This document shows, piece after piece, positions 48,527 through 64,000 of a DNA stretch of 64,000 nt (position 1 is its first letter; every line of letters begins with the position of its first letter). Below the pieces are notes generated by a model, which saw only the letters and a program-made list of their open reading frames with translations, made no database searches and had not been told where the DNA came from. The translations under genes were made by a program, and so were the position numbers. Source of the DNA: Peptococcaceae bacterium (GTDB lineage: Bacteria > Bacillota > DSM-12270 > Thermacetogeniales > Thermacetogeniaceae); assembly GCA_023249405.1 (NCBI GenBank), contig JAHFCR010000003.1:1-64000 (forward strand), written 5' to 3'.

Positions 48527-50116
48527 TCACTGGTACTCGGACAGGGCGCGTTCCACCGCCTCCGGTGTCAACTCGCCGAAGCAGACCGGGCACCGGCCCA
48601 GTTGCGCCAGCAATCGCCGGTAGTCTGACAACAGTTGCCCCGTCTCCTGCTCATAGCGTTCCGCCGCCAGGGTCGCCCCCTGATACTTGCGGTCTTCATC
48701 CTCCCAATCCCGCCCCAGTTCCCGTAGGGCAAGCAGGCCCTGCCCAGCAGCGCCGGCACTCGTCAGACAGGATTCAGCCTGCTCCAGGTGCTCGGTGCGG
48801 GCGGCAATATCGTTAACGCCCTGCAAAGAGCCTGTTACCGCCGACAGCTCCACGGCTACCCGCCTCAGCTCTGACCACTGCAGGCATAATTCTTCGGCCT
48901 GCTGCCTCAGTTCCTCGGCAACGGATACGGGGGCGGTCAGGTCTGAGATATGATCGACCAGCTGCAGGGATTGTGCTATCGCTGACAAATCGCCAGACAC
49001 CTGCGATAGCGCCGACCACTGCCTGTACATTTCTTCCGCCTGCTGCCACAGCTCCTCGGCAACAGGTACGGGAACGGTCAGGTCTGAGATGCGACCGGCC
49101 CGCTCCAACTGCACGGCAGTCTGGGCGATCTCCCCCTCCAGCTGGACCAATCTCAGGCAATCGCCGAGCAAGACCGGCAAGCGCTCCAGTCTCTGTTCGG
49201 CATCGCCCAACCGGGCCAAGGCAGCGATCCTGTCCCTCGCCGTCTCCAGTCGCTGGCCTACCTGTGACAGCTCGGAGGCGATGGCCGACAGGTTTCGGTG
49301 ATCGACGAACGCGGCTTCCAGGTCTCGCGCCCGGTCCTCGGCCTGATCCATGGAGGCGAGGGCCGCCAGCAGGCTGCCGGTATCCGATAAGGCGCCGGAT
49401 ACCTCGCGCCACTGGCGCTGCAGCTCATCCAGGGCCGTAATAGTAGTGGTGATCGCCTCGATCCGCCCCAGCTTCTGCTCCAGGCTGTTGATGTTGGCCT
49501 CCAGCGCCGGCAGGTGGGCATAGCCATCCAGAACCGCCTCCAGACTGGCCAGGCTGGCACTCAGTTGCCCGTCCTCTTCCCGCAGGCGGCGCAGGTCGGT
49601 GCCGGTCGATCTCTGGGCCCAATCCAGGATGTGGACGCCGCCGAGCTGGCCGATCACCTTGGCCCTGACAGCGCCGTTCTCTGACAGCAGGAAGGGCCCT
49701 TCCAGCTGGCCTCCGAAATTCAGTTCCACCTTGTTGCGCTCATCGACCTGCACTTTTCTGATCTCTGAGGCCTGCAGGATCTCCAGGGGGATCTCGTTGT
49801 TGAAGCCCTCGAAGACCATCTCCTGTTCGCCCGGGCGCTGTAAGACATACTGGTTGTTCTTGCCGGAGGCGTTCCGCAGGCGGGTGATCTTGGCGCCGTT
49901 CTCGAGTTCTACGGTGACGCGGCAGGAGTTGGCCCCCACCCGGATGAAATTCGCCCCGCGGGGTTCGTTGTAGAAGAGCCAGCGCAGCGCCCGGACCAGG
50001 GCTGATTTGCCAAAATCGGAGGGCCCGACGATCACGTTCAGACCGGGTCCGAAGCTGACCTCCGTGTGTTCGTGCGACTGGAAGTTGTCCACGATCAGCT
50101 TGCTCAAACCGCTCAT
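48527..50116 (-). CDS. split Rad50-like ATPase, N-terminal half with zinc hook
   Basis: A 529-residue protein equal to the first half of Rad50/SbcC. It has LIVDNFQSHEHTEVSFGPGLNV-type start (N-terminal lobe), Walker A GPSDFGKSALVRAL near residue 32, a Q-loop region in LQASEIRKVQVDE, and a long coiled coil from about 180 to 500. It ends CPVCFGELTPEAVERALSEY. The CPVC at about 509-512 is a Rad50-type zinc hook, and the frame stops 17 residues later, where a normal Rad50 would turn back. Walker B and the signature are absent. The coil contains an internal repeat (ISDLTVPVPVAEELWQQAEE and ISDLTAPVSVAEELRQQAEE). Its start overlaps the Mre11 stop as ATGA. Confidence 0.88.
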   Translation of the reverse strand: MSGLSKLIVDNFQSHEHTEVSFGPGLNVIVGPSDFGKSALVRALRWLFYNEPRGANFIRVGANSCRVTVELENGAKITRLRNASGKNNQYVLQRPGEQEMVFEGFNNEIPLEILQASEIRKVQVDERNKVELNFGGQLEGPFLLSENGAVRAKVIGQLGGVHILDWAQRSTGTDLRRLREEDGQLSASLASLEAVLDGYAHLPALEANINSLEQKLGRIEAITTTITALDELQRQWREVSGALSDTGSLLAALASMDQAEDRARDLEAAFVDHRNLSAIASELSQVGQRLETARDRIAALARLGDAEQRLERLPVLLGDCLRLVQLEGEIAQTAVQLERAGRISDLTVPVPVAEELWQQAEEMYRQWSALSQVSGDLSAIAQSLQLVDHISDLTAPVSVAEELRQQAEELCLQWSELRRVAVELSAVTGSLQGVNDIAARTEHLEQAESCLTSAGAAGQGLLALRELGRDWEDEDRKYQGATLAAERYEQETGQLLSDYRRLLAQLGRCPVCFGELTPEAVERALSEYQ

Positions 50117-51105
50117 GCCTCTTCCTCCCCCCGGGCCATGGCCTCTTCGGCGAGGCCGACGCGCCGCAGCGCCTCTTCCCTGATCCCCTGCTCCAGCTGC
50201 TCATTGCGGGCGATCTCCTCCACCAGCAGCCGCACGTCAGCCCGCTGGTAGGACCCGGCCGCCTTGACCTCTGCCAGGTAGCCGGCCAGGCGCTCCTCCC
50301 TGAAAGAGGCCTCCTCCTGCCGGCTGCGGTCGAGCACGTCCACCCCCGGAGGGGCGCTCTGCAGCCTGATCTTTTCGTAGACGGGGCGGCCGCCGCCAAG
50401 CTCGATGTAGATTACCTGCACCGGCCGGATCAACTCCTGCGGGTGGTTGGAGAGGCGCGCCAGGGCACCGGGATTGAGGAAGTGCTTGCCGTCATGTTCG
50501 GCATCCGGGAACCCCAGGTGGTTGTGGCCGGCCAGGGTGAAGTCTGCTTCGGTCTCCCAGATCTGTTCGATCAGGGTATAGCTGGCGCCGGGGTAAACCG
50601 CCCGGTCGAGCAGCATGCCGTGCACCATGTGGATGGCGTAGTCGCAGTCTTTTTTGGCTACGATATAGTCATGGCGTGGGTCGCGCTGGCGGTGATCCAT
50701 CTCGAAGTGGTATCCCCGTCCGGTAAGCTGTAGCCGGAGGCCGTTCTTTTCCAGGTACACCGGCTCCTGGCCGATCATCCTGACGATCCCCAGCCGGGCG
50801 GCCAGACCCAGCATGGTGCGGGGCAGCGTCTCGGCGTTGTTGCCGAACAGGTCGTGGTTGCCCGCAATGATGTAAACCGGGGCCGGGAACTGCTGGTAGA
50901 TCTCCAGAAAGTCGGCGCAGACGCTGATGGCCGGCGCCGGCACATCGTAGAAATCTCCCCCGTGCAGGATGTAGTCCACCTCCCGCTCGCGGGCGATGGC
51001 CGCCACCTCCCGCAGCTTGATGGCCAGGGTGGCGGGAAAGTTGTCCTTGCGGTTGGCGGGCGTGGTGCCGCGCTTGTGGTCATCGGTCAGAAACAGCAGG
51101 CGCAT
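50113..51105 (-). CDS. Mre11/SbcD-type nuclease
   Basis: A 330-residue calcineurin-like phosphoesterase with all Mre11 metal motifs: LTDDHKRG (DxH), HGGDFYDV, AGNHDLFG, the His of MVHGML and LAGHNHLGF. The C-terminal part is charged and helical, as needed for binding the base of the Rad50 coiled coil. It should act as a Mn-dependent exo/endonuclease gated by the Rad50 halves encoded downstream. The ATG at 51105 (one base after the HerA stop, GAGG seven bases upstream) is chosen over a frame running 38 codons into herA. Confidence 0.92.
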   Translation of the reverse strand: MRLLFLTDDHKRGTTPANRKDNFPATLAIKLREVAAIAREREVDYILHGGDFYDVPAPAISVCADFLEIYQQFPAPVYIIAGNHDLFGNNAETLPRTMLGLAARLGIVRMIGQEPVYLEKNGLRLQLTGRGYHFEMDHRQRDPRHDYIVAKKDCDYAIHMVHGMLLDRAVYPGASYTLIEQIWETEADFTLAGHNHLGFPDAEHDGKHFLNPGALARLSNHPQELIRPVQVIYIELGGGRPVYEKIRLQSAPPGVDVLDRSRQEEASFREERLAGYLAEVKAAGSYQRADVRLLVEEIARNEQLEQGIREEALRRVGLAEEAMARGEEEA

Positions 51106-51106
51106 G

Positions 51107-52978
51107 CTAATCCTCTTCTCTGAAGGCAGAACTGATGGCATAGCTGGGGCCGAAGGGCCCTGCGGTTTTCTTGAGCCTGCCGGCGGCAGCGAACTCCTCC
51201 AGCCACTCCCGCACCTCATCGAAGGTCACCGGGCGGTTGAGGCCGCGTTCGAAATCAGCCAGGTACAGGGTGATCTGGGCGGCATCCAGGGGCAGGCAGC
51301 CTGCCAGGAGCCGCCAGACCTCGGGCTGCAACATTCCGAACCCTTCCTCCAGCTCGGTGAAGGGGTTGACGGTGTGCGGGGCGCTGGTGCGGGCACAGCG
51401 AATGCGGACGGCCACGGTGCGGCCGACCACCGCCGAGGAGATGAAGGCGGTGCCGGAACTGAGGTAGGGAAGACGCTCCGCCTCCTCGGAGGTGATATCC
51501 GTCTCCTCCTTGATCACCCGGATATCGGACTCCCGGACGGTCCTGAAGATGATCTTGGTGTTCAGCTGGGCGTTGATCGTCTCATCCAGGGAGGCCGGCC
51601 GTTGGGTGGCCAGGATCAGGAAGACGCCGTACTTGCGGCCCTCCTGGGCCACCTCCCGGAATACCCCCCGCGCCGGGGCGATGATCTCGAAGCCCTTGGG
51701 GGCGAAGTTGTGGGCCTCGTCGGTGGCGATCACGAATGGTGGAAACTTCTCACCGGGCGCCTCCCCGCGCTGCAGGGCGTCGGTGTAGCTGCGCCGCAGA
51801 TGGTATAGCTTGCTGATCAGATAGGAACTCAAAACTTTCAGCAGCCAGATCGGGCCGCGGATCACCGTCAGGCGCCTCCGTTTGAGGGAATCGATGATCG
51901 GAGCGATCTCCTTGCGGAAGATTCCCTCGCGCTCCAGCCGGAGCAGCCGCCACTGAACGCCCCGCAGGCTGCTGGGGAAAACAGCCGTACGGGCCATGGC
52001 CGCAATCATCTTTTCATAACGGGAATTGGGGCCATGCTTCTTCCGGATCTGCTCGCGGGCCTCATCTTCCTTTTCCAGCCAGGCGATCAGGTCCTCCAGC
52101 CGGCCGGTAAAACTCACCAGGGAATCCTTGTTCCGGTACACGGTCTTCAGAGCGTTGTCCATCCCCTCGGTGAAGTTGCCGCCGGCGGCCATGAGTAAGT
52201 TGGCCAGTTCATTGCTGCTCAGTTCCTCAAAGTTGATGCCGATATCGCGCCCGATGTTCAGGATCGCCGTCCGGCCGCCGTAGCGAGCGCCGTAATCACC
52301 GGCCATCCCTTCGAAGGTGGTGGCGAAGCTCATCTCGTAGTGGGGATCGAAGACCAGGGTCGGCACCCGCTTCTCCAGCAGTTCCTCCAGGATCACTCTG
52401 AGGCCGAAGGACTTGCCGGAGCCGGAACCCCCGAAGATCCCCAGGTGCGGGTACTCCTGCATCGCCTGGTAGTCGAAGATGAAGGGCGTCCCGCTCTGTG
52501 GCAGCACCCCCGCTCCCTTGACAAACAGCGGGGCGATCTCCCGCAGTGCCGGCGGCAGACCCTGCTGCAACTCCTCGGTGCCCAGGAACACGCCCAGCAC
52601 CAGGCCGCGGTCCGGCGGGCAGGGAATCAGCAGGTCCCTGACCTCTTCGAATGACGGCACCCGCACGGCGGCCCCGACCGCTACCGGGGAGGGCAGGTTG
52701 CCCAGCATGCGCACCTTCGCCAGGTGGATCGTCTCATCGCCCACGTTGAAACCGATCTGCTCCAGCCCCTCCCACACCCGGGAGTCGATCAGAGGGCTGC
52801 GCTCCAGAGTCAGCGGGAGGAACCGGTTGAAGGACTTGGTCTCCACCACCTCGCCCCGGGGCTGGCGCAACTCCGCATCATCAACCACCAGGACCTCGTT
52901 GATGCGGAACTTCCGCTCCCTGGAGGCGACGTAGATATACTGTTGTGTGGTGACGCCAACCACCTGCACCCGCATCAT
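51107..52978 (-). CDS. HerA-type DNA helicase/translocase
   Basis: A 623-residue hexameric RecA/FtsK-like ATPase. An N-terminal HAS-barrel region (YIYVASRERKFRINEVLVV) is followed by Walker A GGSGSGKSFGL near residue 185 and Walker B IATDEAHNF. The HerA-typical segment TQRPASLDETINAQLNTKI precedes a C-terminal extension with a helical four-helix insertion before it. HerA drives DNA through the NurA nuclease during end resection, alongside Mre11-Rad50, in archaea and some bacteria. Two ATG codons stand next to GGGGAG, and a GTG three codons later has better spacing, so the start is uncertain by a few residues. Confidence 0.9.
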   Translation of the reverse strand: MMRVQVVGVTTQQYIYVASRERKFRINEVLVVDDAELRQPRGEVVETKSFNRFLPLTLERSPLIDSRVWEGLEQIGFNVGDETIHLAKVRMLGNLPSPVAVGAAVRVPSFEEVRDLLIPCPPDRGLVLGVFLGTEELQQGLPPALREIAPLFVKGAGVLPQSGTPFIFDYQAMQEYPHLGIFGGSGSGKSFGLRVILEELLEKRVPTLVFDPHYEMSFATTFEGMAGDYGARYGGRTAILNIGRDIGINFEELSSNELANLLMAAGGNFTEGMDNALKTVYRNKDSLVSFTGRLEDLIAWLEKEDEAREQIRKKHGPNSRYEKMIAAMARTAVFPSSLRGVQWRLLRLEREGIFRKEIAPIIDSLKRRRLTVIRGPIWLLKVLSSYLISKLYHLRRSYTDALQRGEAPGEKFPPFVIATDEAHNFAPKGFEIIAPARGVFREVAQEGRKYGVFLILATQRPASLDETINAQLNTKIIFRTVRESDIRVIKEETDITSEEAERLPYLSSGTAFISSAVVGRTVAVRIRCARTSAPHTVNPFTELEEGFGMLQPEVWRLLAGCLPLDAAQITLYLADFERGLNRPVTFDEVREWLEEFAAAGRLKKTAGPFGPSYAISSAFREED

Positions 52979-53118
52979 CTCCCCAGTCCTAGACCATCGA
53001 TTTTACAAGTGAATTTGCCGACTTTATGAATATATGATATATGCTAACAGAAGAGTTGTTCTGGCGTTCGGAATCAAATTGGCAGGCGTTCCTGATTTCT
53101 TAATAAACCAACCCTTTA

Positions 53119-53143
53119 CTCATACTGGCTATGGGAGTATGAG
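53119..53143. repeat. inverted repeat between nurA and herA
   Basis: CTCATACT-GGCTATGGG-AGTATGAG, an eight-base-pair perfect stem, about 30 nt after the nurA stop in the direction of transcription. The minus-strand sequence after it (TAAAGGGTTGGTTTATT) is only partly U-rich, so it may be a weak terminator or an mRNA-processing hairpin within the operon. Confidence 0.45.
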
Positions 53144-53173
53144 AACCAGTCCCGCGCTTCGTCTCCGCCCTTG

Positions 53174-54193
53174 CTATAGGTCGCGGCGGGCTCGCAATGG
53201 GCTCAGGAACAGCTCCCGCAGGTCCGGGTCCAGGTAGGCGGCCAGCAGCACCTCCACCTGTTCGGCAGTGATGCGCACCTCGGCATCGACCACGTCCAGC
53301 CAGAGGGGAAAACCCCTGCCGTGGGCTGGCGTGACCGTATATAGAAAGTTCATGGCATCATCCAGGTCCCCGGCCTGCTCAGCCAGATAATCCACGGCGA
53401 TCGCCTGCGGGTGCCCGGACAGCCGGGCATAGACCCGGTTCCACCGACACGGGGAGTTAGTTTGTTTATGAACCCGGAGGATCTCGCCCGGCTGCAGCAG
53501 ACCGTAGAGGAACTCCCGGTCGGCCCAGCCGGTAAAAGCCCCTTTAAGCGCATCTTCTATCTCCGATACCTGCTCAACGAGGACCTGGGTGGCGATCTCC
53601 TCGGTCACTCCGAGCATGATCGCCCCCTTCTGCAAAGCACCATTTTTAATCCGCCCCCAGATTGCCGGAGCGTGTTTTTCCAGGCGGGCAAAACCGCCGT
53701 CCCACAGCAGGATCCTGGGATGTTCCCGCTCCAGGGCCGCCTCGCCCATCTGCGTCTCCATAGCGGCCAGGGTCTCCCAGCGAATATGCGCCAGGGCATC
53801 ATCCGGGTTAATGCCCTGATCGAGCAACCACTGCACCCGGGCCTGGTCCTTCGACAATAGCGGAGAGAAAACCTTGTAGGCCCAGAACCTGTTTCCCGCT
53901 GCCCCCCGCCTGGTGGACCTGGCCAATGCCCGAAAGAAGGTCGCCGTGTAGGGAAAACTGGCGCCGCAGGAACCGAATGAGCCGTCCACCCCCACCAGAG
54001 GCGAATCTCCAAACAGAGCCCGGATCTCCTCCGGGCCAAGATAGCGCAGCGGGGCGATCTTTCCGATCTGTTGGGCCAGGTTGCGCCGCATGGCTGTGCC
54101 GCCTGCCGCCTGCTGCCGCCGGGCCAGCGCTCCGTTCAACTCTTTTAGCTCAGCCGCCAGTCCGTCTGTTTCCTGCCAATCGTCAATATCCAT
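53174..54193 (-). CDS. NurA-domain 5'-3' nuclease
   Basis: A 339-residue NurA protein: LVGVDGSFGSCGA holds the first catalytic Asp, ILLWDGGFARLEK the second strand motif, and AIMLGVTEE, then HKQTNSPCRWNRVYARL and AIAVDYLAEQAGD complete the RNase H-like core. NurA resects 5' strands with HerA. It is the first gene of the operon nurA-herA-mre11-rad50N-coil-rad50C. The ATG at 54193 is preferred; a TTG two codons earlier is possible. A gap of about 195 nt with a hairpin separates it from herA. NurA-HerA pairs are best known from archaea and thermophiles. Confidence 0.9.
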   Translation of the reverse strand: MDIDDWQETDGLAAELKELNGALARRQQAAGGTAMRRNLAQQIGKIAPLRYLGPEEIRALFGDSPLVGVDGSFGSCGASFPYTATFFRALARSTRRGAAGNRFWAYKVFSPLLSKDQARVQWLLDQGINPDDALAHIRWETLAAMETQMGEAALEREHPRILLWDGGFARLEKHAPAIWGRIKNGALQKGAIMLGVTEEIATQVLVEQVSEIEDALKGAFTGWADREFLYGLLQPGEILRVHKQTNSPCRWNRVYARLSGHPQAIAVDYLAEQAGDLDDAMNFLYTVTPAHGRGFPLWLDVVDAEVRITAEQVEVLLAAYLDPDLRELFLSPLRARRDL

Positions 54194-54721
54194 GATCAAA
54201 ATACCCGCTGTCCTTTACCAATGCTGCGGTTAGCGCGCCCCTATTCACCGCTTGCGCTTGTTTTTTACCAACATTAATGTGAAACTGGTATCAGTGCGAC
54301 CAGGTCTTCTGCCGCCGGGTACCAACCCAGTGGGTACCCTCTGGTAAGCTTAGCACAAGCCAAGCCTTCTACGGAAGCGACAGCATTAGTGCCGGTTAGC
54401 CGCCGGATACGTCTCTTGAACGCGCTTCCCGCCCAGTCTTCGCCTCAGGTCCGCTAACATTATAGAAGCGCCCCCGTGTTATACTTTTCCAGTCGCCAGT
54501 TTAAGAGTTCGGCATTGCCATCCTGCTTTCCTCCATGCCTGGCGCCAGCACGGAAAAAACAACAGTTCTGCCCTGCTAGTCAAAAAAAGGTTTTAAAACC
54601 AGTGTTTTTAAATTATTATTGGATATGCAGAGCATTTACTGCTTACGTGGAAACCGATTTCTAGATATTTCCATCCAGGAGAAAATATCGTAGACTGTAT
54701 CCTGAAGGAGTTGATAGAGCG
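54194..54721. other. divergent intergenic region between nurA and manC
   Basis: About 530 bp with no recognisable gene. It holds the GGGTACC element (54317-54339), a 12-bp palindrome GGTTTTAAAACC (54589-54600) and an AT-rich stretch (54590-54700) that probably contains the manC promoter. The nurA promoter should lie at its left end. No RNA gene or riboswitch could be recognised. Confidence 0.5.
54317..54339. repeat. GGGTACC dispersed element, copy 2
   Basis: Sequence GGGTACC-AA-CCCAGTGGGTACCC, in the nurA-manC intergenic region. It shares the arrangement GGGTACC, two or three bases, CCCAG(A/T)GGGT(A/G)CCC with 41673-41696. The inner GGGTACC copies allow alternative hairpins. Confidence 0.55.
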
Positions 54722-55795
54722 TTGCCCTACGCAGTGATCATGGCCGGTGGCCGCGGCGAGAGATTCTGGCCGAAGAGCCGCCAGGAACTCCCCAAACAAT
54801 TCTTATGCCTGGTTGGCGATCGCACCATGCTACAGAAGACAGTCGACCGGCTGCAAAAAACGATCCCCATAGAACAGATTTACATCATCACCGGAAAGGC
54901 ATACTATGATCTAGTTTGTGGACAGGTTCCTGAAATTCCTGAAGGAAACATCATCCTGGAACCGATCGGCCGGGATACGGCGGCAGCGGTGGGGCTATCA
55001 GCGGTAGCCATCTCCCGGAGAGACCCCGCCGGGGTGATGATCATCCTGCCTGCAGACCATTACATTGCTGATGAAGAGCAGTTCTGCGCAGTCTTGCAGA
55101 GCGCAGTGACACTGGCTGAATCCGGCGAACACCTGGTCACCCTGGGCATCACTCCGAACCGCCCGGAGACCGGTTTCGGGTACATTGCCCATGGCCGGAT
55201 TTACAAAAATGTTGACGGCAATCCCGCCTATGCCGTCGACCAGTTCATGGAAAAACCAGACCTGCAGCGCGCTCTGGAGTACCTGGCAAGCGGCCATCAT
55301 TACTGGAACAGCGGCATCTTTATCTGGCGGGTCGACCTGATCCAGAGCCTGATCGCCAGTCACCTGCCCGAGCTGAACGCTGGTCTGATGAAGATCAGGA
55401 CAGCCTACGGCACAGGGCGCTACCAGGAGGTGCTGGAAACGGTCTTTGCCGGTCTGCCCAAGATCTCCATCGATTACGGAGTGATGGAAAAAGCCAGCAA
55501 CGTACTGGTCCTGCCCGGTAATTTCGGCTGGGACGACGTTGGCTCCTGGACAGCGCTGGATGCTTACAAAGACAAGGATGAACAGGGCAATTGCCTGGAG
55601 GGCAGGGGGGTCCTGGTGGAAACCAGCAACACCCTGGTGCTGTCCTCCGGCAAAGTGGTGGCCACCCTGGGCGTGGAGGACCTGATCGTGGTCGAGGGTC
55701 GCGACAGCATCCTGGTCTGCCACAAAGGGCGCGCCCAGGAGATCAAGAAGGTTATCAGCGCCCTGCAGGAACAGGGATACAAGGAGGTGCTGTGA
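54722..55795 (+). CDS. manC: mannose-1-phosphate guanylyltransferase
   Basis: Makes GDP-mannose from GTP and mannose 1-phosphate. The 357-residue protein has the nucleotidyl loop MAGGRGERFWPKSRQELPKQF, then GRDTAAAVGLSA, LPADHYI, MEKPDLQRA and WNSGIFIW, in the order of the GDP-mannose pyrophosphorylase class. It is the short form, without the fused phosphomannose isomerase domain of long ManC proteins. The start is TTG at 54722 with GAAGGAG upstream; no ATG precedes the glycine loop closely enough. Its stop overlaps the ATG of manB (TGATG), so GDP-mannose supply is made as one unit. Confidence 0.92.
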   Translation: MPYAVIMAGGRGERFWPKSRQELPKQFLCLVGDRTMLQKTVDRLQKTIPIEQIYIITGKAYYDLVCGQVPEIPEGNIILEPIGRDTAAAVGLSAVAISRRDPAGVMIILPADHYIADEEQFCAVLQSAVTLAESGEHLVTLGITPNRPETGFGYIAHGRIYKNVDGNPAYAVDQFMEKPDLQRALEYLASGHHYWNSGIFIWRVDLIQSLIASHLPELNAGLMKIRTAYGTGRYQEVLETVFAGLPKISIDYGVMEKASNVLVLPGNFGWDDVGSWTALDAYKDKDEQGNCLEGRGVLVETSNTLVLSSGKVVATLGVEDLIVVEGRDSILVCHKGRAQEIKKVISALQEQGYKEVL

Positions 55796-57168
55796 TGAAT
55801 CCATTAATTTTCAGGCAGTATGACATTCGCGGCCATGCTGAGCAGGACCTGACCGACGAGACCGTCAGGCTGATCGGACAGGCATTCGGAAGCTACGTTC
55901 AGGAGCACGGCTCCAATCAGGTGCTGGTCGGACGGGACAACCGCCTCAGTTCGGAAAGGCTGCGGGACGCCCTGGTTGGCGGCCTGATCGCCACCGGGTG
56001 CCAGGTCATCGATATCGGGCTGGTGATCACGCCGATGCTCTATTATGCCCGAGTCTTCTTCAACATCGACGGAGGGGTGATGATCACCGGCAGCCACAAT
56101 CCTCCCGATGAAAACGGCTTCAAGCTGGCCCGCGGTGAGGGCACCATTTACGGGGATGAGATCATGCGACTGCGGGAGATGATCCTGGCCGGGCAGTTCC
56201 GATCCGGCACGGGAAGCCGCCAGGAGCGCAGTATAGTCGAACCCTATCTGGCCATGCTGAAGGAAAAGATCACCCTCGGGCCGCGCCGGTTGAAGGTAGC
56301 GGTGGATAGCGGCAACGGCACCGCCTCTCTGTTTGCGGAACAGATCCTGCGGGCATGGGGCTGCGAGGTGACGCCGCTTTACTGCGAATCCGACGGCTGT
56401 TTCCCGCACCACCACCCAGACCCGGTCAAGACCGCCAACCTGGCAGACCTGATCAGAACGGTGCAACAGCAGTCCGGCGACCTGGGCATCGCCTACGACG
56501 GGGACGCCGACCGGATCGGCGTCGTCGACGAATCCGGGCAGGTGATCTGGGGAGACAAGCTGATGTGCCTGTATTGGCGCGAGGTTCTGGAGCATCACCC
56601 CCACTCCCTGGCCATCATTGAAGTGAAGTGCTCCCAGGCCCTGGTCGACGAAGTGACGCGCCTGGGGGGACGCCCGCTGTTTTACAAAACCGGCCACTCC
56701 CTGATCAAGGCCAAGATGAAGGAGACCGGAGCGGTTTTCACCGGGGAGATGTCCGGACACATGTTTTTCGCCGACGAATATTATGGTTACGATGATGCCC
56801 TCTATGCTTCGGGCCGCCTGCTCCGGATCCTCTCCCGCACAAACCAGAGCCTCTCGGAGCTATTGGCGCACATCCCCAAGTACTATGCCACGGCAGAAAC
56901 ACGGGTACCCTGCGCCGACCGGATCAAATTTGACATTGTCAACCAGTTGGTGGATCACTTCCGCCGCGATTATCAGGTAATAGATGTTGATGGAGTCAGG
57001 GTGCTCTTCCCCGATGGCTGGGGACTGGTCCGGGCATCCAACACCCAGCCGGTGCTGGTAGCCCGGTGTGAGGCCAAAACGCCCGAGGGACTGCAGCAGA
57101 TCTGCAGCGTCATGAAACAGACCATCCTTCAATACCCGGAGATGGAGGATTTTACGTGGGAATACTAG
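55795..57168 (+). CDS. manB: phosphomannomutase/phosphoglucomutase
   Basis: A 457-residue alpha-D-phosphohexomutase converting mannose 6-phosphate (and probably glucose 6-phosphate) to the 1-phosphate. Four domain marks: TGSHNPPDENGFKL with the phosphoserine, AYDGDADRIGVVDE metal loop, GEMSGHMFFADEYYG sugar-specificity loop, and a C-terminal RASNTQPVLVARCEA phosphate-binding loop. RQYDIRG at the start is typical of the AlgC/ManB class. The ATG at 55795 overlaps the manC stop and has AAGGAGG upstream; the longer open frame lies inside manC. It feeds manC and the mannoside genes that follow. Confidence 0.93.
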   Translation: MNPLIFRQYDIRGHAEQDLTDETVRLIGQAFGSYVQEHGSNQVLVGRDNRLSSERLRDALVGGLIATGCQVIDIGLVITPMLYYARVFFNIDGGVMITGSHNPPDENGFKLARGEGTIYGDEIMRLREMILAGQFRSGTGSRQERSIVEPYLAMLKEKITLGPRRLKVAVDSGNGTASLFAEQILRAWGCEVTPLYCESDGCFPHHHPDPVKTANLADLIRTVQQQSGDLGIAYDGDADRIGVVDESGQVIWGDKLMCLYWREVLEHHPHSLAIIEVKCSQALVDEVTRLGGRPLFYKTGHSLIKAKMKETGAVFTGEMSGHMFFADEYYGYDDALYASGRLLRILSRTNQSLSELLAHIPKYYATAETRVPCADRIKFDIVNQLVDHFRRDYQVIDVDGVRVLFPDGWGLVRASNTQPVLVARCEAKTPEGLQQICSVMKQTILQYPEMEDFTWEY

Positions 57169-60100
57169 ACGTCGATGCCCTCTTCGATCAGAGCATTGCC
57201 GAACCCCTGGACCAAGCCAGGAAACTGGCCGATATCAACCTGGTGGTCGGTGTCCCTTTCTACAACGAGAAATTTACTCTGCCCAAGGTGCTGCAGGTAA
57301 TTGAGCAGGGGCTGGCAGAGGCCAAGCAATTGGACCGGACGCTGATCGTCTGCGCCGGAGACCACCGCGGCTCGGAAACCCTGGAGATCATTGCCGAATT
57401 GCCCTTCAAGGCTGCCCACCTGGAGTTCCTGATGCTGCCCGGGGCCAATGGCCGGGGCTCCAGCATCCGGGCGATCTTAGAGATCGCCAATCTGATGGAG
57501 GCTGACGTCCTGCTCTTCACATCGGACCTGATCGCCGGAGAAAACAACGGGTTGCAGCCGGCATGGGTGCAGCGGATCCTGGAGCCGATCAGGATGGAGT
57601 ACGACTTTGTGATCACCCTCTTGAAGAAGAACTACTTCGAAGACTACCTGAACAGCCTGTTAATAGCCCCCCTGCTGGAGGCCTTCTACGGCTACCGGAT
57701 CGACAGCGCCCTCAGCGGCATCTACGCTATCGCCAACGATGTGGTGGAGGATCTCTGCACCGAGATCAAGTTCTGGGGAGAACTGACCAGAGACTATGGA
57801 ATCGACCCCTGGCTGATCACCAGGGCCATCCGCTGGAACAAGAAGATCTGCGAGGTGGAACTGGGGACAAAACTGGAAGGTATCTACCTGGAAAAGTTAA
57901 ACTACATGTTCAAGGTCCTGGCCAAGACCATGTTCGAATGCATCAAGCGGGATGAGGACTTCTGGCTGTCGGGCCGCTACATCCGCAAGTCCCCGGACAT
58001 CTATTGGAACAAATACCAGAATGCCGCCCCTGAGCCATCCTACTCCACCTACGGCATTACCAACCTGTTCAAGCGCGGCCTCAACCAGTACAAGAGCCTG
58101 TACAAGAAGATCCTGCCGGATCTTCTGTATGCGGACGTCGAGCGCATCGCAACAGCCACAGCCCGGGAGCCCCGGTTCAACAGCAAGATCTGGGCGCATA
58201 TCGTCTACTGGTTCCTGTTCCACTACTGCTTCGCCGTAGACGTCAACAGCGACGACGTGCTGGGCGCCATGGCCTGCGCCTTCTTCGGCCGGCTGACCAC
58301 GATCCTGGAACAGGCCCAAAACCTGAAGGATGATCTCAAAGACGTTCCCCAAGTCAATTCGCAAAATCTGATCGCCGGCGAGATCGCTTCTGCCAAAGAA
58401 GACCAGCAGGACTCCTTCCTGAAGCTCAGGGAGGATTTCTTCCGGGTCTGGGAGCAAAAAGCGCTGGAACTGAAGCCGTCGATCATTCCCGAGCACTACC
58501 TGGAGTTCATCCCGGGCATTCCCATCGCCCTGCCCAAGGAACTGGAGGGCCGGGGCGGCCGGGTCATCTGGAGCGAGGGGATGTTCAACCGCCTGCAGTC
58601 GAAATACCAGGAGGCCTTTCACAACTTCACCTATAACAGCCTGGGAGTGTCTGAAAATGCCGATTCCCGTGCCCTGGCCGGGAGCCTGCGAGAGTTCATG
58701 GAGCAGTTGAACCAGGCGATGGACCGGCTGCTGCCCGGAGACCCGTTCACGGTGGAGGGCGCCCAGCAGGTGGTCGACGCCCTGTTCCACCTGCTGCCAT
58801 CCCGGATGATGTTCTACATCAGGGACGAACTCCTCCAAGAGGCTCTCCTGCACTATCCTCCGCTCAACCTGATGATCCCCACCGGCTGCAATACCTCCCG
58901 GGTGCTCCTGGAGATGATGGACGTCCGGGAGGCGATCACCCTGGCCAACCTGGTCGAGAACCGGAAGTGGGCCGACGGCATCCTGCTCTGGATCCTGGAC
59001 AACGTGAAACCGGGGTCTTTTGGCGAGGTGGAGATCAAACCGATCGTCCTCGGACCGCAAGTCCTGGGCGGCAGCATCCAACTGGGGGCTATCTCCGATC
59101 TGAACAAACTCACCGCCCGGATCGTGGTCAGGCCGCTGGGCAAGAACATGGGCGGCGACTACCCAAAGCTGCGTTTCGCCCTATTCATTGCCAGGCACAT
59201 CATGATCGCCCGCAACTATTCCGCCCTGCTGAGGACCTATGCCCGGGAGCGCAAGAACCTGGGCCTCAAGGTCCGCAACTCCCTGATCGGACGCTATGAG
59301 ACCACCGCCTTCTCGGTGCACAACATCTTCGAGGACTTCCACCACAAGGCCCTGGTGAGCCAGTTCCGGAATACTGCCGGGCACCTGGCAGAAACAGGCC
59401 AGGCCGAAGACGCCAGACTGTTGGAGATGATGTGCGAGAGCTACGGCCTCAGCCAGGTCCTGGCAGACGGCACCTTCATCCCCTGCTCCGCCTGGAGTTG
59501 GGCCAGCTTCAGCTACAAGGGAGGCCGCGGTATCCCCACTCCCCTGTCCAGCCACGTCGAAGAAAAATGGTTCAACCACGACTTCCTGGAGGAGATCTAT
59601 ACCGAACTGGGGTACGACCCCGGCGAGATCATGCGCACGGTGACACAGCTGATCGGAGAGGGCCGGGCCAGCGAAAACCTGCTGGACGTCCTGCTGGGGA
59701 TCAGGCGCAAGGACGTCACCGTGGTCGTCCAGGAATCCCGGGACTACCCGCCGGCGAAGCCGCTGGAGCGCTATGCGGGCAACCCGATCCTGCGCCCCAT
59801 CAAGGAGCATGTCTGGGAAAGCAAGTACGTCCTGAATGCGGCTGCAGTCCGGATCGGCGATCTGGTCTACCTGCTCTACCGGGCCTTCGGAGATGACGAG
59901 ACATCGCGCATCGGTCTGGCGATCACTGACGGTTACCAAGTGCTGGAGAGGATACCGGAGCCGATCTTCGGGCCCCATGACGAGAAGGATAAAAAGGGCG
60001 TGGAGGACCCCCGGGCGGTGATCGTCGAGGACCAGATCTACATGCTCTACACCGCCTACGACGGGGCTATCGCCCAGATCTCCGCGGCATCGATCACCGT

Positions 60101-60719
60101 TGAGGATTTCTTGAAACGCAATTGGGACCAGTGGAAGCGAAAGGGTTTCGCCTTTCAGGACGTGTGGGACAAAGACGCCGTCCTGTTCCCGGAGCGGATC
60201 GACGGCAGATATGTCATCTATCACCGGATCGAGCCCAGCATCTGGGTATCGCACCTGGATCGGCTGGATTTCCCGGCACCCAAAGAGAAACATTCGATCA
60301 TCATGGGGCCGCGCTCCGGCAGGATGTGGGACTCCGTGAAGATCGGAGCGGGCACTCAGCCGATTAAAACCCGGTTTGGCTGGCTGCTGATCTATCACGG
60401 CGTGGACCGGGACCGGGTCTACCGGCTCGGGGTGATCCTCACTGACCTGAAAAACCCGGAACGCTTGTTGTACCGCTCCCCCAACCCGGTGCTCTCGCCA
60501 GAGACAGAATACGAGATCGGCAATGCGGACAGTTGGGTGCCCAGGGTGGTCTTTACCTGCGGGGCCGTACCGGTGAAAAACAAGGCAGTGCTGGATGCAG
60601 AGGATGAGATCCTGGTCTACTATGGCGCTGCCGACACCTACGTCTGCCTGGCCACGGCCAGGGTCGGCGACCTGATCCCGGAGGCGATCAGGCAGGACCT
60701 GCCGGAGCGTTCCTCCTGA
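57156..60719 (+). CDS. glycosyltransferase-GH130 mannoside phosphorylase fusion
   Basis: An 1187-residue protein in three parts. Residues about 25-330 form a GT-A glycosyltransferase (LVVGVPFYNEKFTLPKVLQV, AGDHRGSETLE, FTSDL, IDSALSGIYAIANDVVEDL), nearest in look to GT2/GT81 glycerate- or mannosyl-transferring enzymes. About 400-860 is a large region I do not recognise. About 868-1187 is a GH130 five-blade propeller: RYAGNPILRP, YRAFGDDETSRIGLAITDG, KGVEDPRAVI with the catalytic Asp, YHRIEPSIWVSHL and GAGTQPIKTRFGWLLIYHG with phosphate-binding residues. GH130 enzymes phosphorolyse beta-mannosides or, in reverse, build them from mannose 1-phosphate. The gene overlaps manB by 13 nt. There is no signal peptide. 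Confidence 0.85.
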   Translation: MGILDVDALFDQSIAEPLDQARKLADINLVVGVPFYNEKFTLPKVLQVIEQGLAEAKQLDRTLIVCAGDHRGSETLEIIAELPFKAAHLEFLMLPGANGRGSSIRAILEIANLMEADVLLFTSDLIAGENNGLQPAWVQRILEPIRMEYDFVITLLKKNYFEDYLNSLLIAPLLEAFYGYRIDSALSGIYAIANDVVEDLCTEIKFWGELTRDYGIDPWLITRAIRWNKKICEVELGTKLEGIYLEKLNYMFKVLAKTMFECIKRDEDFWLSGRYIRKSPDIYWNKYQNAAPEPSYSTYGITNLFKRGLNQYKSLYKKILPDLLYADVERIATATAREPRFNSKIWAHIVYWFLFHYCFAVDVNSDDVLGAMACAFFGRLTTILEQAQNLKDDLKDVPQVNSQNLIAGEIASAKEDQQDSFLKLREDFFRVWEQKALELKPSIIPEHYLEFIPGIPIALPKELEGRGGRVIWSEGMFNRLQSKYQEAFHNFTYNSLGVSENADSRALAGSLREFMEQLNQAMDRLLPGDPFTVEGAQQVVDALFHLLPSRMMFYIRDELLQEALLHYPPLNLMIPTGCNTSRVLLEMMDVREAITLANLVENRKWADGILLWILDNVKPGSFGEVEIKPIVLGPQVLGGSIQLGAISDLNKLTARIVVRPLGKNMGGDYPKLRFALFIARHIMIARNYSALLRTYARERKNLGLKVRNSLIGRYETTAFSVHNIFEDFHHKALVSQFRNTAGHLAETGQAEDARLLEMMCESYGLSQVLADGTFIPCSAWSWASFSYKGGRGIPTPLSSHVEEKWFNHDFLEEIYTELGYDPGEIMRTVTQLIGEGRASENLLDVLLGIRRKDVTVVVQESRDYPPAKPLERYAGNPILRPIKEHVWESKYVLNAAAVRIGDLVYLLYRAFGDDETSRIGLAITDGYQVLERIPEPIFGPHDEKDKKGVEDPRAVIVEDQIYMLYTAYDGAIAQISAASITVEDFLKRNWDQWKRKGFAFQDVWDKDAVLFPERIDGRYVIYHRIEPSIWVSHLDRLDFPAPKEKHSIIMGPRSGRMWDSVKIGAGTQPIKTRFGWLLIYHGVDRDRVYRLGVILTDLKNPERLLYRSPNPVLSPETEYEIGNADSWVPRVVFTCGAVPVKNKAVLDAEDEILVYYGAADTYVCLATARVGDLIPEAIRQDLPERSS

Positions 60720-60810: not shown

Positions 60811-61875
60811 TCAGTTGTGGGCAGGCTCCGGGGCCTCAGCCAGATGAACATCCGGAGCACACACATGGTGCTGCAGAATCTGCTGATAAACCGCCAGGTA
60901 GTCCTGCGCCATCCGTTTCCGGCTGAAGCGTTGTTCCGCCCAGCGTCGGCAGTCCTGCCGGTCGAGAGCGGGGATCTGCCCCAGGGCCGCCGTGGCCTCG
61001 GCCACGTTATCGACTAGGAATCCGGTCGTTCCATGCCTGATGATCTCCGGCATGGAGCCCCGGCTAAAAGCCACTACGGGGGTGCCGCAGGCCATCGCCT
61101 CCACCACGCTCAGGCCAAACGGCTCTGCGAAGCTGATCGGATGCAGCAGGGCAAAAGCGCCGCCCAGCAGACCGCCTCTACGGTCCGGTCCCACCGACCC
61201 GATGAACTCCACCCTTCCTTTCTCTAGCCGCGGTGCTACCAGCTCATCAAAATACCGCTGGTCCTGGACAATCCCGGCCATCACCAGAGGCATGCCGAAA
61301 GCGCCGGCGATCTCGATCGCCTCAGCCGTCCCCTTGTCGGGGTGAATGCGGCCGAAGTAGAGCAGATAGCCGCCAGCGGTCGACACAAAGGGGAAGGACT
61401 CCAGATCGATCCCGTGATAGACGGTGGCGAGATAGTCCAGGGACGGATGGCGGTCGGCGTTGCTGATGGAGATATAATGGCTACTCTTGTTATATTCCTG
61501 GAATACCGGCAGAATCCGGGGCGAGGAAAACCCGTGGATAGTGGTGACTACGGGCGTGTTCACCAGCCGGCTGTAGGTGAGCGGCAGAAAATCATAGTTG
61601 TTGTGGATCAGGTCAAACTCCCCCGCCCGCTCGAAGAGGTGGGCAATATGCAGGCACTCCCAGACCTTGGGATCGATCTCCGGGTCCTCCTCGTAGGGCC
61701 GGGGACAGATAAAGTCGAGCTGCGCCCCGGTGAAGGAATCACCGGTGGCAAAAAGGGTGACCTCCACTCCCAGTTCCAGCAATCCCTCGCAGAGCAGGGA
61801 AACCACCCGCTCCCAAGGTCCATAATGTTTGGGGGGAGTCCTCCAGGCAATCGGCGATAACAGGGCAACTTTCAA
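60811..61875 (-). CDS. family 4 glycosyltransferase
   Basis: A 354-residue GT-B transferase: VALLSPIAWRTPPKHYGPWE at the N-terminus (WRTPPxxYGxxE is typical of a GT4 subgroup), YHGIDLESFPF, LYFGRIHPDKGTAEAIEIA, and EPFGLSVVEAMACGTPVVAF with the ExxxxxxxE nucleotide-sugar motif. It may use GDP-mannose made by the neighbouring manC-manB. The TTG start at 61875 has GGAGG seven bases upstream. It lies 84 nt after the GH5-like gene on the same strand, with a heptanucleotide repeat tract between. Confidence 0.88.
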   Translation of the reverse strand: MKVALLSPIAWRTPPKHYGPWERVVSLLCEGLLELGVEVTLFATGDSFTGAQLDFICPRPYEEDPEIDPKVWECLHIAHLFERAGEFDLIHNNYDFLPLTYSRLVNTPVVTTIHGFSSPRILPVFQEYNKSSHYISISNADRHPSLDYLATVYHGIDLESFPFVSTAGGYLLYFGRIHPDKGTAEAIEIAGAFGMPLVMAGIVQDQRYFDELVAPRLEKGRVEFIGSVGPDRRGGLLGGAFALLHPISFAEPFGLSVVEAMACGTPVVAFSRGSMPEIIRHGTTGFLVDNVAEATAALGQIPALDRQDCRRWAEQRFSRKRMAQDYLAVYQQILQHHVCAPDVHLAEAPEPAHN

Positions 61876-61897: not shown

Positions 61898-61979
61898 GTG
61901 TGAGGTGTGAGGTGTGAGGTGTGAGGTGTGAGGCAAGACCACTTCCCACTCCCCATCTCTCACTTCTCACTTCTCACTT
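61898..61979. repeat. inverted heptanucleotide microsatellite
   Basis: Five perfect tandem copies of GTGTGAG (61898-61932) face three copies of CTCACTT (61959-61979), whose complement is AAGTGAG. The two tracts are near-complementary and could fold into one long imperfect hairpin. The right tract also encodes the last codons and the stop of the GH5-like gene. Confidence 0.8.
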
Positions 61980-63192
61980 CACAGTATTTGCGGTAGAGCC
62001 TCGGCAGTTCGGTCCGCTGGCTCCGGTAATAGCGCTCCGGGTCCTCCCCCCGCAGCCAGCCGGCCGGTGACTGATCCACCGCCGGACCCCGGCCTGCGGC
62101 CAGCCGGCCGGCAAACTTGCCGATGGTCTGTACTGCGGGCTTGGGAGAACCATCGTGTCGAAATAGCCCAAAATGCCTCTCATGAGGATTCTCCTTGAGA
62201 GGCGGACGATCCCACAGGCTGGGGTGGTAGTCGCCGTAGCACCAGGCCATGGCGCCGGTCATTCCGGCCTGGCAGAGCAACTCCAGGGCCTGCCGGTAAT
62301 AGGTGGCCACTTCGGTCTCATCCCACAACCGGCATTGATACGACTCGCGTTTATCGGGGTATGGGGGCAGTATCGGTCGGCTGGGAGCCCCGAACTCCTC
62401 GAACAACACCGGCTTGCCTCCGAGCCAACGGGTCAACAAACCCAGAAAGGGCAATACTCGTACGTCGCCGGGGTCGTCAATCCAGGACAGATAGAAGGGG
62501 TAGCCATGCATACAGAGCCAATCGCACCAGAGTGCCGCATCCTGCGGCCACAGGCAGCGGTCATTCTCCAGGTCCTCGGCGTGCATGCCCAGGGTCACCG
62601 GGCAGTCGCCGCCTTGCCGCCTGATCTCTCCCGCCATGATCTCCAGCCATGACCGGGCAGCGTTCCGGTCCGGGGGCAGCACACAGTTCGAAGATTCGTT
62701 GCCCAGGTCGTAGGCCCAGATCGCCGGATGGCCTGCCAATGCCCGAGCCACCTCCCGGCATTGCAATTGTTGCGCCCGGATGATCTCCCGATCGGTATAC
62801 CAATTGCGGATACCGGCTGTCAACAGGCGCCCGCCCGACCAGACTGGAAAACGCCCACCTTCTCTACCGGGACCGAGCGCCCAGCCGGGCAGCCAGTTGA
62901 TTCCGCTCATATGGCCGCAGAACAGGGTGGGCATAATAAAAACGCCGCCTTCAGCGGCGATATCCGCCAACTGTACCAGACGGCGCAGGGCTGCAGGCAA
63001 AACAGTATCCGGGGCCGGTTGGAACTCCTCCCAGAGCAGAAAGACCCGCACATGGCTGATCCCGCCAGCCGCCATCCTGCCAAGATCGGCTGATACTTCC
63101 GCGGCGTCAAAATCCTGCCACCAATACATGGCCTTGTTCAAAGGCCAGTAATTTGTGCCCAGCACAAAGCGCTGCTGTTCATCCCTAACCAC
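61960..63192 (-). CDS. cytoplasmic GH5-like glycoside hydrolase
   Basis: A 410-residue (beta/alpha)8 barrel of the cellulase/mannanase type (clan GH-A). FVLGTNYWPLNKAMYWW is at the start, the acid/base Glu lies in YDLGNESSN after beta-4 and the nucleophile Glu in VLFEEFGAP after beta-7. HGYPFYLSW and MAWCYGDYHP are substrate-side segments. There is no signal peptide, so it acts inside the cell, perhaps on mannosyl products of the neighbouring genes. It starts with GTG at 63192, GGGGAG nine bases upstream. The last residues (CEVRSEK) come from the heptanucleotide repeat and look like a recent C-terminal extension. Confidence 0.82.
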   Translation of the reverse strand: MVRDEQQRFVLGTNYWPLNKAMYWWQDFDAAEVSADLGRMAAGGISHVRVFLLWEEFQPAPDTVLPAALRRLVQLADIAAEGGVFIMPTLFCGHMSGINWLPGWALGPGREGGRFPVWSGGRLLTAGIRNWYTDREIIRAQQLQCREVARALAGHPAIWAYDLGNESSNCVLPPDRNAARSWLEIMAGEIRRQGGDCPVTLGMHAEDLENDRCLWPQDAALWCDWLCMHGYPFYLSWIDDPGDVRVLPFLGLLTRWLGGKPVLFEEFGAPSRPILPPYPDKRESYQCRLWDETEVATYYRQALELLCQAGMTGAMAWCYGDYHPSLWDRPPLKENPHERHFGLFRHDGSPKPAVQTIGKFAGRLAAGRGPAVDQSPAGWLRGEDPERYYRSQRTELPRLYRKYCEVRSEK

Positions 63193-63210: not shown

Positions 63211-64000
63211 TCAGGCCTTCTCGAGGATCTCCAGTTGCTCACTCGCCTCCGGGCCTGGCGCCGCTAACATCAGATCGTCCACCGCCTGCTGCGACAGCAG
63301 CGAAGACAGTACGGCCTCGGCCCCCTGGTTGAGGTTGACTCCCTCGGGAACCAGGGCGTCGTAACAGCCACCGCTGGCAGTATCGTACAGGCTCACCCGG
63401 TTGATGTTGTTGCCGCGGTACCAGCTGTGGGCTAGTTCCGCCAGGGACCGGTACTGGTCGTCCCCGGTGGCCTGGAAGGCCTGGGCACAGGCCAGGGCCA
63501 TGGAACAGGCGTCGACCGGCTGCTGGTCGTAGCAGGGTATGGCTTTCCCCTGATGCCACCAGCCCCGGTTGCCAACGATGTTCAGGTAGCCCCTGGCAAA
63601 CAGGGCCTCGCTCAGCCACCCCATGGTTTCCCGGGCCACCCTCAGGGCCTTCCGGTCCTGGGTCATAGAGTAATAGGCAAACAGGGCATGCGGCAGGATG
63701 CCATTGCAATAGGTCAGGAGTTGTTCGAACCAGAGCCATCCGGGGGATTTATTGGAGTCATACAACTGGATCAGATAGTCGGCAAAATCTCGGGCGGCAC
63801 TGGCCAGAAGCTCTCTTTTGCGATTGCTCAAGCCAGGGTTCTTGCAGATCCCGAGCAGAGCGTAAGCTACGGATCGGGGCTCTTTTACCCTGGTGAGCGC
63901 CGGTAACGCCCGCAGGGCCATTCTGCGCCCCGACTCCCTGACGTCATCAAGATCGCACAGGGAAGCCGCGCAGCAGGCCAGAAAAATCCGCCCCTGACTG
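63211..64000 (-). CDS. alpha/alpha-barrel-like protein, 5' end beyond the window
   Basis: The frame is open from the stop at 63211 to the right edge, so only the C-terminal 263 residues or so are seen. The segment is almost all helix, with repeated aromatic turns: WLWFEQLLTYCNGILPHAL, GNRGWWHQGKAIPCYDQQP, CSMALACAQAF and YDTASGGCYDALVP. This spacing resembles (alpha/alpha)6-barrel glycosidases, epimerases or phosphorylases, and the DQQPVD/GGCYD pattern is often found behind glycosyltransferase domains. The full protein could be a fusion. It lies 18 nt upstream of the GH5-like gene and is probably co-transcribed with it. Confidence 0.65.
   Translation of the reverse strand, partial: SQGRIFLACCAASLCDLDDVRESGRRMALRALPALTRVKEPRSVAYALLGICKNPGLSNRKRELLASAARDFADYLIQLYDSNKSPGWLWFEQLLTYCNGILPHALFAYYSMTQDRKALRVARETMGWLSEALFARGYLNIVGNRGWWHQGKAIPCYDQQPVDACSMALACAQAFQATGDDQYRSLAELAHSWYRGNNINRVSLYDTASGGCYDALVPEGVNLNQGAEAVLSSLLSQQAVDDLMLAAPGPEASEQLEILEKA

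Follow-up and report, generated by a model that had tools for sequence, protein, structure and literature searches.

A conserved three-part bacterial protein combining a mannosylglycerate synthase-like region, a helical domain and a predicted β-1,2-mannoside phosphorylase

The fusion gene, its neighbors and its distribution

We analyzed a window of 64,000 nucleotides (positions 1 to 64,000 of contig JAHFCR010000003.1, Peptococcaceae bacterium). On its forward strand, a single open frame of 1187 codons runs in the ORF listing from a GTG at 57156 to a stop at 60719, as an earlier sequence-only reading had described. The encoded protein consists of a GT-A part resembling mannosylglycerate synthase (MGS), a helical domain and a GH130 phosphorylase domain. 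The GTG is preceded, at a distance of 7 nt, by a strong ribosome-binding stretch rich in purines, GGAGATGGAGG. GC3 is alike across the three domains (0.81, 0.86 and 0.81). No membrane segment was found in the whole 1187 aa, and the protein is cytosolic.

The GTG start overlaps by 13 bp the 3' end of manB (55783–57168, forward strand; PF02878-PF00408, NF046027), which encodes phosphomannomutase. In turn, manB overlaps manC (54722–55795, forward strand; PF00483, PF22640, TIGR01479), the gene for mannose-1-phosphate guanylyltransferase. The three genes read as one apparent operon, which supports the connection to mannose 1-phosphate that had been proposed for manC and manB from the sequence. Downstream and facing this operon lie a GT4 glycosyltransferase gene (GT4a; 60811–61875, reverse strand; PF00534), a gene for a GH5_18-like protein of the β-mannosidase family (61960–63192, reverse strand; PDB 7lr7, ScGH5_18, E 3e–19) and the C-terminal part of a helical-barrel protein (63211–63999, reverse strand; weak GH127 match). 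The rest of the barrel protein and a second GT4 gene (GT4b) are located just beyond the window edge. The GH5_18-like protein matches no Pfam or NCBIfam model, and in some relatives (L017) GT4a is fused to a mannose-6-phosphate isomerase cupin.

Across relatives, the commonest companion of the fusion gene is a pair of GT4 and barrel proteins, either fused (about 770 aa; L021:7646–9949 and L017:16272–18575) or encoded by two adjacent genes. manC, manB and the first GT4 come next, along with a separate GH130 in Pelotomaculum-type loci. The barrel protein itself has only weak GH127 or C5-epimerase matches and no PDB relative. On its other side, the mannose operon adjoins a reverse-strand cluster (48527–54199) that by eye encodes an apparent SMC-like ATPase, a phosphoesterase, a HerA-like ATPase and a NurA-like protein; this cluster is partly kept beside the fusion gene in L016–L019.

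We searched 398 genomes drawn from the phylum with residues 400–860 as the query; 48 of them encode the three-part protein in one frame, with identity falling to about 30%. Nearly all matches to the query sit in frames of about 1170–1275 aa, the few shorter ones (718, 855, 1015 and 1102 aa) being close to the end of a contig or part of a fragmented genome. No free-standing middle domain was found with this query in the 398 genomes. Since the architecture is kept as one frame at this frequency, and full-length single-frame homologs (1100–1275 aa) occur in about 50 genomes, a frame-joining or assembly error, which the sequence-only reading had raised, is ruled out. Named relatives carrying the fusion include Peptococcaceae, Desulfotomaculum, Pelotomaculum and Syntrophomonas genomes; for Syntrophomonas and Pelotomaculum, published proteome and transcriptome studies do not mention a protein of this type in their main text. 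In a homolog search of its own genome, the fusion gene was the sole match and hence the only GH130 found there by that search. A contig labeled Deltaproteobacteria (L031:5532–9131) also carries the cluster of the fusion gene. Its protein is 61% identical to the window protein and nested among Peptococcaceae in the tree, which points to mis-binning or recent transfer.

The GH130 domain

Residues 869–1187 (59760–60716, forward strand) form a GH130 β-mannoside phosphorylase domain. Pfam PF04041 covers residues 888–1172 (E 2.6e–48, 165 bits versus a gathering score of 26), and the catalytic Asp predicted within GVEDPRA is D951. The closest solved structures, Teth514_1789 (7fip, E 1.1e–55) and Teth514_1788 (9fj8), are both β-1,2-mannoside phosphorylases, and the best matches overall are phosphorylases of β-1,2-mannobiose and β-1,2-oligomannan. 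In our alignment of 51 full-length rows, which includes the window protein and extends down to 34% overall identity, residues N894, E950, D951, K1006, R1024, K1062, H1081 and D1160 are invariant. Loss of catalytic residues, a check that the sequence-only reading had proposed, was seen in none of these rows. The mannose-site residues of Teth514_1788 are Asn28, Asp92 and Asp281 (Chiku et al., PMC4264767), and they align with N894, D951 and D1160. R1024, K1062 and H1081 are aligned with basic residues in both Teth enzymes and are candidates for the phosphate site, whose basic residues the hydrolases lack.

Several features bear on the linkage. E950 corresponds to the Glu characteristic of the GH130_NC group. 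Lys199 is the β-1,2 determinant of BT3780 and is kept in both Teth enzymes (Cuskin et al., PMC4599007); K1006 is the Lys within the KDA motif common to Teth514_1788 and Teth514_1789, and its equivalence to Lys199 runs via these two proteins. We also built a GH130 tree of 57 sequences, of which 43 are fused domains. All 43 form one clade (100/99), whose neighbors are Teth514_1788, Teth514_1789 and two relatives without the fusion. Some of the loci with a fusion gene also encode stand-alone GH130 proteins, which fall far from this clade. A single origin of the fusion, from a phosphorylase of the β-1,2 type, is therefore probable. The score with the NCBIfam β-1,2-mannobiose phosphorylase model NF052550 is below threshold (245 bits versus a curated cut-off of 450), so the exact substrate specificity is not assured. 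Taken together, the claim of an active-looking phosphorylase holds, and K1006, the E950/D951 pair and the tree position narrow its linkage: the domain looks like an intact β-1,2-mannoside phosphorylase, with β-1,2 favored over β-1,4.

The Teth enzymes make up the sister clade of the fused domains and have the mannose-site, Glu and Lys residues in common with them. Unlike the fusion, they stand alone, at about 300 aa, and have neither a transferase nor a middle domain. Their Thermoanaerobacter X-514 cluster for GDP-mannose contains manC, GT4, GH5 and two GH130 genes (Chiku et al., PMC4264767); it is much like the loci studied here, but the published gene list has no such fusion (PMC4264767).

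Salvage has been proposed for Teth514_1788 and Teth514_1789 (PMC4264767), and one could expect the same here: an enzyme that only converts β-mannosides to mannose 1-phosphate, with an N-terminal scaffold of 868 residues for regulation or oligomerization. The GH130 domain is indeed the most strongly conserved part of the protein (mean column identity 74%, versus 54% for residues 1–275 and 49% for residues 276–868), and a GH5_18-like mannosidase is encoded nearby. However, residues 440–866 are never found lost and are highly conserved around 763–809, which exceeds what a plain scaffold needs, and the two GT4 transferases of the cluster argue for synthesis too. We consider salvage as the only role rather unlikely.

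The transferase-like part and the middle domain

Residues 24–438 (57225–58469, forward strand) comprise a GT-A domain and a helical part, with a fold nearest MGS (GT78). By profile, residues 21–166 are tied to GT2 enzymes (sll0501, E 2.4e–6; a second profile search gave E 2.4e–5). Weak matches to Pfam Glycos_transf_2 were found in 31 of 43 members, the window protein scoring 13.7 bits, below the gathering score of 23.3. MGS was not among the profile-search matches of the N-terminal part, which gave GT2 enzymes instead, and the GpgS family model NF010496 did not match the fusion gene in its own genome. The full-length AlphaFold model is poor (mean pLDDT 54) due to a shallow alignment, which limits assignment to MGS. 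With this low-pLDDT model, six MGS entries rank first in VIA-align (Z 14.5–16.2, 305–321 residues, rmsd about 7.5 Å). The best of them, 2y4j, aligns over 315 residues with Z 16.2, and the next family reaches Z 10.8. The alignment spans residues 28–429 of the model and nearly all of MGS. Hence residues 276–430 would be the helical part of the transferase, and the first 150 residues of what had been read as an unassigned middle of about 450 residues belong there by fold. We suggest, as a fold-level call on a weak model, that residues from about 28 to 430 are most like MGS and that the N-terminal part may derive from an MGS-like transferase using GDP-mannose.

The likeness to Rhodothermus marinus MGS (GT78, 2bo4/2y4j) includes the helical part, with the same reservation as to the model, and the positions of R100, D124 and D217 match the motif order of GpgS (GT81). 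In contrast to MGS and GpgS, to which identity is 11%, the fusion has extra domains, an eroded DxD motif and metal His, and no match to an MGS sequence profile. GpgS has an ion triad, Asp134-Lys114-Glu232, and the metal ligands Asp136 and His258, which correspond to Asp102 and His217 of MGS (PMC2581804). We mapped these residues by motif order and spacing to positions 122, 100, 217 and 124 and to a loop around 239–243. Arg or Lys at position 100 is kept in 51/51 sequences, D124 (equivalent to GpgS Asp136) in 44/51, including the window protein, and Asp at position 217 in 42/51. An acid at position 122, the first of the DxD motif, is present in only 18/51. The window protein has T122, S123 and D124 and lacks the loop His, thus having neither the complete DxD motif nor the metal-ligand His of GT78/GT81. 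Deep-branching members keep EAD at the DxD position, two of them together with the loop His, which most homologs lack. In two genomes the fusion gene is present in two copies (L072 and L073; L074 and L075). The L073 copy has SSY at the DxD position versus AAD in its sister, a difference that suggests division of labor or decay.

These counts bear on a dual-function synthase, in which an active GDP-mannose transferase primes an acceptor (glycerate, lactate or mannose, for example), with the GH130 domain extending or shortening a β-1,2-mannoside chain. The fold closest to a GDP-mannose enzyme, the retention of positions 100, 124 and 217, the EAD of deep-branching members and the supply of GDP-mannose by manC and manB are all consistent with it. 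On the other hand, the whole ion triad together with D124 is kept in just 7/51 sequences, D124 is lost entirely in another seven, and in the window protein itself the first Asp is replaced by Thr and the metal-ligand loop lacks His. We regard such a synthase as a tentative possibility. Erosion thus affects the transferase site but spares the GH130 site, which makes transferase activity doubtful; priming by the N-terminal domain cannot, therefore, be assumed. Of the earlier claims, the GT-A fold stands but the motif set is incomplete, and the scheme of priming followed by extension gains a mannosyltransferase-like fold but is weakened in its priming step by the replacement of D124 and the scarcity of the first DxD acid.

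Residues 440–866 (58473–59753, forward strand) form a conserved helical domain seen only within the fusion. It is this portion of the formerly unassigned region that keeps its status: searched alone, the middle region has no remote homolog in Pfam, NCBIfam or PDB profiles, in viral contigs or in plasmids. Mean column identity is 55% (43 sequences), and E450, E601, E802, W780, W782 and W805 are invariant. Residues 763–809 are very conserved (YGLSQVL.DGTF.PCSAW.WAS...KGG.G.PTPLS.HVE..WF). Such invariant Glu and Trp would be compatible with a sugar site. A model of residues 276–868 is moderate (pLDDT 72, pTM 0.61); Foldseek returned nothing significant for it (best E 0.28), and neither did BFVD. 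In VIA-align, DUF885 and gluzincin peptidases come first, with Z up to 8.2 (rmsd 5.9) and rmsd values in the range 5–9 Å. We reject a peptidase reading because there is no HExxH, and because Z values under about 13 are usual for helical models; the candidate helix has FENxHH, with Glu replaced by Gln in some sequences. GH189 and other (α/α)6 glucanases are not among the matches listed for the middle domain, an absence that is not evidence.

Cyclic β-1,2-glucan synthase (GT84-CY-GH94, PMC10901819) has the identical order of a transferase, a large middle and a phosphorylase in one chain, and its glucan chains are shortened by phosphorolysis (PMC10901819). By analogy, the fusion could be a one-chain mannan synthase in which the transferase elongates, the middle transglycosylates or cyclizes, and the phosphorylase trims chain length. 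Besides the order, the invariant Glu and Trp of the middle, residues frequent in carbohydrate-active sites, agree with this. Yet the glucan synthase is a membrane protein acting on glucose, with unrelated middle and phosphorylase families, while the fusion is soluble and linked to mannose. Beyond the general GT-A fold no domain family is common to both, and therefore the likeness is one of layout only. The fusion has no membrane part and no GH94 or glucoamylase-type Pfam match, its middle model finds no significant structural relative, and its transferase site is eroded. Moreover, we know of no glycan of this type in these bacteria. A mannan synthase of this layout is thus highly improbable.

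A role in intracellular mannose metabolism

Overall, we suggest with moderate confidence that the fusion contains an intracellular β-1,2-mannoside phosphorylase within a larger protein that handles a mannose oligosaccharide made from GDP-mannose. Judging from its residues and tree position, the GH130 domain would reversibly split terminal β-1,2-mannosyl links with phosphate, yielding α-mannose 1-phosphate. ManC, from the same operon, would convert mannose 1-phosphate to GDP-mannose, and ManB would link it with mannose 6-phosphate. The N-terminal part may have kept a weakened priming activity or, with at least equal likelihood, serve as a platform that binds a nucleotide sugar or an acceptor. 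Between the two sites, the helical domain may hold or process the mannoside. The remaining glycan is probably assembled and trimmed by the neighboring GT4 enzymes and GH5_18-like mannosidase. The fusion protein thus probably makes or recycles a mannose-containing sugar inside the cell. Salvage alone leaves the permanent joining of a phosphorylase to two other domains unexplained, a point that counts against our main reading.

The Leishmania mannosyltransferase-phosphorylases (GT108, PMC8950772) resemble the fusion in their β-1,2-mannan chemistry and GH130-related propeller. They differ in carrying out both reactions in one propeller domain, whereas the fusion has two separate domains and its sequence matches GH130. 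A bolder idea is that the fusion is a soluble one-chain bacterial synthase of β-1,2-mannan or mannosyl-oligosaccharide, with a GDP-mannose transferase, a phosphorylase that controls length and, working between them, a middle domain of a new carbohydrate-active family, providing these anaerobes with a reserve glycan like Leishmania mannogen; we deem this distinctly unlikely.

A conserved fusion of a phosphorylase with a mannosyltransferase-like domain, apparently of one origin, ties phosphorolysis to nucleotide-sugar metabolism within a single chain, and defines a 430-residue domain without described relatives in Pfam, NCBIfam or PDB. Its GH130 and GT parts make it amenable to standard enzymology. 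If a β-1,2-mannoside is its product or substrate, these syntrophic and sulfate-reducing bacteria would contain an unrecognized intracellular mannose glycan.
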